Shown: piece by piece, positions 14,469-49,722 of the stretch
Position numbering within the stretch: the stretch's first letter is position 1
Layout of the letters: every line of letters begins with the position of its first letter
Assembly (NCBI GenBank): GCA_033239005.1
Contig: BSQZ01000004.1
Location: 17,106,507 to 17,170,506 of the forward strand
DNA length: 64,000 nucleotides
Reading direction: 5' to 3'
Source: Lamellibrachia satsuma
Taxonomy: Eukaryota > Annelida > Polychaeta > Sabellida > Siboglinidae
Made by a program: the position numbers and the translations under genes
Notes under the pieces: model-generated
Seen by the model: only the letters and a program-made list of their open reading frames with translations
The model's database searches: none
Told to the model about the DNA's origin: nothing

Positions 14469-14606
14469 CTAGTCAGTGAAGGCATATAGCATAGCTGTGT
14501 GAAGTGATAAGACGTCTTTCGTCGATTTTTCTGTCACTTCCTTGTCCTTTGACTTGCTCAGAAACAGGCGAACCCTTTTGTGCTGGAGTCCAAATATGAT
14601 CTGTAC
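14469..14606 (-). CDS. IARS1: IARS1 exon 28 and stop
   Basis: Residues 1136-1180: [45 protein letters not shown], then TAG. It aligns with the first of the two human C-terminal repeats (S-I-F-G...D-L-L-S-L). A second repeat is absent. The acceptor (TTTTTGTCCACAG) is about 30 bp from a 38-bp array. Confidence 0.88.
   Translation of the reverse strand, partial: VQIIFGLQHKRVRLFLSKSKDKEVTEKSTKDVLSLHTAMLYAFTD

Positions 14607-49722: not shown

Follow-up and report, generated by a model that had tools for sequence, protein, structure and literature searches.

The window analysed here comprises 64,000 nucleotides of contig BSQZ01000004.1 from the annelid Lamellibrachia satsuma. It contains a complete gene for cytoplasmic isoleucyl-tRNA synthetase (IARS1), which runs from position 49722 to 14469 on the minus strand and consists of 28 exons and 27 GT-AG introns encoding 1180 amino acids without an internal stop. 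When IARS1 of Capitella, Owenia and Branchiostoma served as templates in a spliced aligner, the identical 27 introns were obtained each time, with 0 missed and 0 extra. The exon numbers and coordinates given in the original prediction are right. The protein is 70% identical to that of Capitella teleta, the highest value among the 120 matches listed, and 68% identical to that of Branchiostoma lanceolatum. In a tree of 33 rows, Capitella is the partner of the window IARS1 (SH-aLRT 81) and the sole named species in the enclosing group of nine rows (SH-aLRT 99); Owenia, also an annelid, lies outside this group, beside Lingula (SH-aLRT 92).

Tandem arrays make up 11,806 of the 31,711 bp of IARS1 introns (37%) and are found in 16 of the 27 introns; they number 29 if merged by hand and 39 by an automatic rule. 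Three of them span a splice donor. The features concerned are as follows.

14469..49722, minus strand: gene coding for cytoplasmic isoleucyl-tRNA synthetase (IARS1), with 28 exons, 27 introns and a product of 1180 aa (from homologs, solved structures and an aligner check)
40191..40282, minus strand: exon 11, the last ~49 nt of which are copied in the intron 11 array (from the gene model and alignment)
39218..40223, minus strand: array across the donor of intron 11 (39163-40190) in units of 72-87 nt; the real donor at 40190 is followed by 11 donor copies
37983..38109, minus strand: exon 13, the last 26 nt of which are copied in the intron 13 array (from the gene model and alignment)
37599..38008, minus strand: array across the donor of intron 13 (36358-37982) with a unit of 51 nt; the real donor at 37982 is followed by 7 donor copies
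35476..35670, minus strand: exon 15, the last 5 nt of which (GGATG) recur in the intron 15 array (from the gene model and array sequence)
33503..35480, minus strand: array of intron 15 (32366-35475) with a unit of 58 nt and a 5-nt overlap with the exon; the real donor at 35475 is followed by 33 donor copies

The unit lengths agree with those originally read from the sequence and, at 51-87 nt, fall in the minisatellite range. The accompanying claim that each unit contains the last bases of the exon together with the GT donor stands for introns 11 and 13, where the tandem unit plainly spans the exon-intron boundary (by ~49 and 26 exonic nt, respectively), and for intron 15 by no more than 5 exact nt. 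In intron 11, 42 of the 44 aligned bases are identical, with gaps of 5 nt in addition; in intron 13, the identity is 26/26; in intron 15, 14 of 19 bases match in register, the last five exactly. As repeats, the arrays exceed chance: the 24-mer at the donor recurs downstream at 23/24, 24/24 and 20/24 in introns 11, 13 and 15, while a control in which donors were paired with the wrong intron, run on the myosin genes described below, gave 0/670 at 18/24 or better. Besides the three real donors, the arrays carry 11, 7 and 33 donor copies with a GTAA core, 51 in all where 'around 50' had been estimated, and one array has 34 copies. The copies fit U1 no worse than the real donors do, with matches at 6-8 of 9 positions in the copies and at 6-7 in the real donors (n = 3). 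Copies within the arrays are distinguished by substitutions, and those of intron 11 also by a 5-nt indel, in ordered blocks. The three units are unrelated to one another and the arrays are separate; therefore they have separate origins, as had been proposed.

For intron 11, the direction of copying can be read from the protein. The copied piece encodes HSYPFCWR, which is also present in Capitella, Owenia and Branchiostoma, and so the copying went from exon to intron. Intron 15 has a special anatomy: its array terminates in an exon-like piece followed by GGATGAGAG, and for this reason its unit is read as intron bases 1-58, the last five of which equal the last five of the exon. The ancestral intron 15 would then have carried GGATGG across the junction itself and again 58 nt deeper in the intron, and slippage could have started on this short direct repeat.

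Which of the many donors would the spliceosome have to choose? Because use of a later donor would bring in an in-frame stop starting at intron nt 2, 10 and 2 in introns 11, 13 and 15, respectively, the full protein would, as judged from the sequence, be made from the first donor only; the IARS1 protein is intact only with the exon-proximal donor. Within the units of intron 11 (window 39218-40190), an acceptor-like CCCTYGCCCCRCTAG lies ~45 nt before the donor copy, and such a unit could serve as a pseudo-exon, with an in-frame TAG by our reading.

The original prediction took three such arrays in one gene as a sign of a process beginning at the 5' junction, not of chance. How many should be expected from random placement? 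Tandem self-similarity of at least 19-20/24 occurs at 32-34% of sampled interior intron positions of IARS1, as against 3/27 donors and 0/27 acceptors (1/27 acceptors if the window takes in 18 bases of intron and 6 of exon). For a null of random seeding, each array was collapsed to one unit and dropped randomly on the gene before expansion. Under this null, which is approximate and bound to the arrays that TRF can detect, IARS1 should have 0.84 donor-spanning arrays with 5 or more exonic nt, and the three observed have a P (three or more) of 0.052, a value which, like the others for this gene, comes from a gene chosen because of its three arrays. A per-intron version of the null gives 0.93-1.14 expected (P 0.05-0.09). 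When only units of at least 30 nt are considered, P for donors is 0.024; at 20 or more exonic nt, two arrays qualify and P (two or more) is 0.06; and for at least three spanning arrays at either end, P is 0.23.

A wider sample was drawn from the same genome (a 735-Mb assembly of 279 contigs). The Pfam myosin head family gave 77 exon matches, and from ~20 loci, those with at least 3 exon matches spanning less than 20 kb in all were taken as ten myosin genes, not picked for the trait; since the match span was limited to less than 20 kb, genes with longer introns are left out. The gene models have no internal stop and were predicted from sequence with one template, at 38-53% identity. Junction-spanning copies at 19/24 or better were found in 14 of the 134 introns, 8 at donors and 6 at acceptors, and four of the six acceptors have 24/24 copies; at 18/24 or better, mismatched pairing gave 0/670 for each end. 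The repeat lags are 23-237 nt, some of them perhaps multiples of a unit, and the largest intron array has up to 45 copies (TRF). In one of these genes, M4 (L045-L046), which we take from its sequence to be of class V, 61% of the intron sequence is tandem arrays and 5 of 15 introns have junction-spanning arrays (three donors, two acceptors). The array copies in its introns 3 and 10 carry the acceptor signal, and in one M4 array the acceptor recurs together with 71 nt of a motor-domain exon, at 80% identity or more (56 nt by TRF), in 16 copies. Another acceptor array contains the acceptor plus 17 nt of exon (13 by TRF) in 19 copies. A further 18 introns, of which one of 36 nt is doubtful, came from 12 of the 30 loci with myosin head matches, none of these 12 belonging to the ten genes. 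They added two donors and no acceptor, making a total, with IARS1 included, of 13 donors and 6 acceptors in 179 introns.

The best reading of the IARS1 and myosin arrays is that they represent the 'mirage' phenomenon published for amphioxus, which is common in the sampled genes of this genome, with junction-spanning arrays in about one intron in 10. This likeness had been suggested in the original prediction, and the published record bears it out. Amphioxus mirage minisatellites (Adh3, globins, troponin C and PGBD5) are tandem units across the exon-intron boundary, many of them with AG/GT signals, and the unit length ranges from 10-72 nt in Adh3 to 150-160 nt in globin; they lie at both 5' and 3' boundaries, splicing is reportedly undisturbed and length variation is reported (PMC3087553, PMC3902484). 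The arrays described here share the boundary-spanning units with splice signals, the lengths in the minisatellite range and the presence at both intron ends; compared with these accounts they differ in that the host is an annelid, that one array has 34 copies and another up to 45 (TRF), and that about one intron in 10 is involved. Studies of human segmental duplications and of Drosophila link intron gain or change to tandem repeats at a splice site, and the likeness lies in local tandem duplication, by which splice signals are copied or which sits where exon and intron meet (PMC2812944, PMC2891723). Human repeats located at such boundaries are further relatives of mirages. Unlike those intron gains, existing introns have been lengthened here. 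Minisatellites are also described in the first intron of earthworm metallothionein genes, another case of minisatellite-rich annelid introns, with no overlap of a unit with the junction reported in the portion of that source consulted (PMC12783039).

Among the matches listed from open-licence literature, no earlier report of junction-spanning arrays in an annelid was found, and junction-spanning minisatellites named 'mirage' were found for amphioxus only. One minisatellite of splice donors is also said to be known from humans: Turri et al. reportedly described in 1995 a minisatellite with multiple splice donors in IFI6 (6-16), with a 12-bp unit, whose alternative donors are used in mRNA. IARS1 differs from this case in that its later donors would bring stop codons. 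Here mirage-type arrays are present in an animal distant from amphioxus, in about one intron in 10 of the sampled genes. With as many as dozens of nearly identical donors lined up after a single exon, such genomes constitute natural experiments on how the spliceosome chooses among equal sites, and they allow one to ask how introns lengthen or arise by tandem duplication.

We consider it probable that the arrays result from a pervasive birth of minisatellites, which is harmless across junctions since the exon-proximal splice site still gives a normal mRNA. Short stretches of the genome would often be duplicated in tandem and then expand, presumably by slippage or microhomology-mediated duplication. 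A duplication wholly inside an exon should be purged by selection, whereas one lying over a junction would be tolerated because the site next to the exon body, if used in vivo as expected, would still yield the normal message. The additional copies, all equipped with a splice signal, would turn into intron and grow, probably neutrally, and a mirage array would thereby form at either kind of junction, donor or acceptor. Of the three IARS1 units, two derive from coding sequence, arrays of this anatomy are present at both intron ends and in other genes, and the frequency of junction-spanning arrays lies within about twofold of random seeding. The phenomenon goes with a minisatellite-rich genome. 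The arrays look like a widespread side effect of the mutations that make repeats, and a junction-specific initiator is unneeded, though junctions may show a weak excess of up to about twofold.

Such an excess would be expected if junctions, donor and acceptor alike, were preferred birthplaces of tandem duplications, for example through breaks or R-loops associated with transcription and splicing, which we regard as unlikely. It seems equally doubtful that in this genome both kinds of junction generate minisatellites at up to about twice the rate of the remaining intron sequence, by a mechanism tied to transcription or splicing, and that this is a main route of intron growth. The ten myosin genes speak for a preference: with at least 5 exonic nt by TRF, 8 donors are found against 3.8 expected (P 0.039) and 6 acceptors against 3.9 (P 0.20), in sum 14 against 7.75 (P 0.018), and the three IARS1 donors, at P 0.05-0.09, point the same way. 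However, at 10 or more exonic nt the excess in the myosin genes shrinks to 6 donors and 5 acceptors against 3.2 and 3.2 expected (11 against 6.4, P 0.051). With IARS1 included (eleven genes, 161 introns), the counts at 5 or more exonic nt are 11 donors against 5.7 (P 0.021) and 6 acceptors against 5.6 (P 0.49), with a P of 0.053 for the sum, and at 10 or more, 8 donors and 5 acceptors against 4.8 and 4.7 (13 against 9.4, P 0.14). Moreover, junctions lie in such repeats less often than interior intron positions do: in the myosin genes, 6% of donors (8/134) and 4.5% of acceptors (6/134) as against 15% and 14% of interior positions.

A mechanism that acts specifically at the 5' splice site, the one originally proposed, is very improbable. 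IARS1, with three donors and no exon-containing acceptor array, fits it best (P 0.024 for this pattern under random seeding), and the 13 donors found against 6 acceptors in 179 introns lean in the same direction. Nevertheless, acceptors are affected too, by six arrays in the myosin genes including the four with 24/24 copies, and the bias towards donors has a P of 0.79 in the myosin sample (8 against 6), 0.33 with IARS1 (11 against 6) and 0.17 over the 179 introns; amphioxus mirages likewise occur at both ends (PMC3087553). With a P of 0.05-0.09 in a gene picked for its three arrays, the claims of a beginning at the 5' junction and of a 5' preference were therefore not sustained.

Two other accounts deserve hardly any weight. 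That the arrays are assembly artefacts, known here as they are from one assembled haplotype, is at odds with copies that vary by substitutions (and in intron 11 by the indel in ordered blocks), with the recurrence of the pattern in unrelated genes and contigs, and with the shortness of 0.4-2 kb arrays beside long reads in general. That donor arrays are kept by selection, for example as U1 snRNP platforms suppressing premature polyadenylation or delaying splicing, could draw on the 9-nt donor ATGGTAAGG of intron 15, unchanged in 33/33 copies, but no special constancy of the donor bases within copies was found in introns 15, 13 and 11 (the fractions of 9-nt windows at least as constant are 0.09, 0.75 and 0.26), and acceptor arrays also exist.

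Other arrays in the IARS1 introns include the following two.

28331..28824, minus strand: 29-nt array of intron 19, ending at the acceptor of exon 20 (exon starts at 28329), without exon bases
36564..37334, minus strand: another array with a 51-nt unit in intron 13, at a distance from either junction

The intron 19 array abuts the acceptor without taking in any base of the exon; it reaches 17/24 in a window centred on the junction and 20/24 when 18 bases of intron and 6 of exon are used, and it was not counted as junction-spanning. That the two 51-nt arrays in intron 13 share an origin is unsupported, their likeness being at the level of shuffled sequence (P 0.23). For the donor of intron 16, the match at lag 37 is 17/24, short of the required 19, and this donor was left uncounted. 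In intron 27 (window 17227-17496), a 19-nt array begins 10 nt downstream of the donor with a unit that contains CAGGTGTAA, similar to the real CAG|GTGAGT; it is possibly an old, degenerate donor array, and having no exon base it was not counted as a fourth one in IARS1. Intron 26 (window 18593-22099) contains two blocks of one 58-nt unit with ~1.4 kb of other sequence between them.

Outside IARS1, an open reading frame on the plus strand (window 6574-6981) encodes a C2 domain (Pfam PF00168, E 3.7e-15) and is part of a neighbouring gene. The right flank (window 51735-62220) contains LINE-like retrotransposon remains with two reverse transcriptase matches and, among nine open reading frames scanned, one weak PHD/endonuclease-like one. 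Minisatellites cover 2% of the right flank and 19% of the left flank, compared with the 37% of the IARS1 introns.
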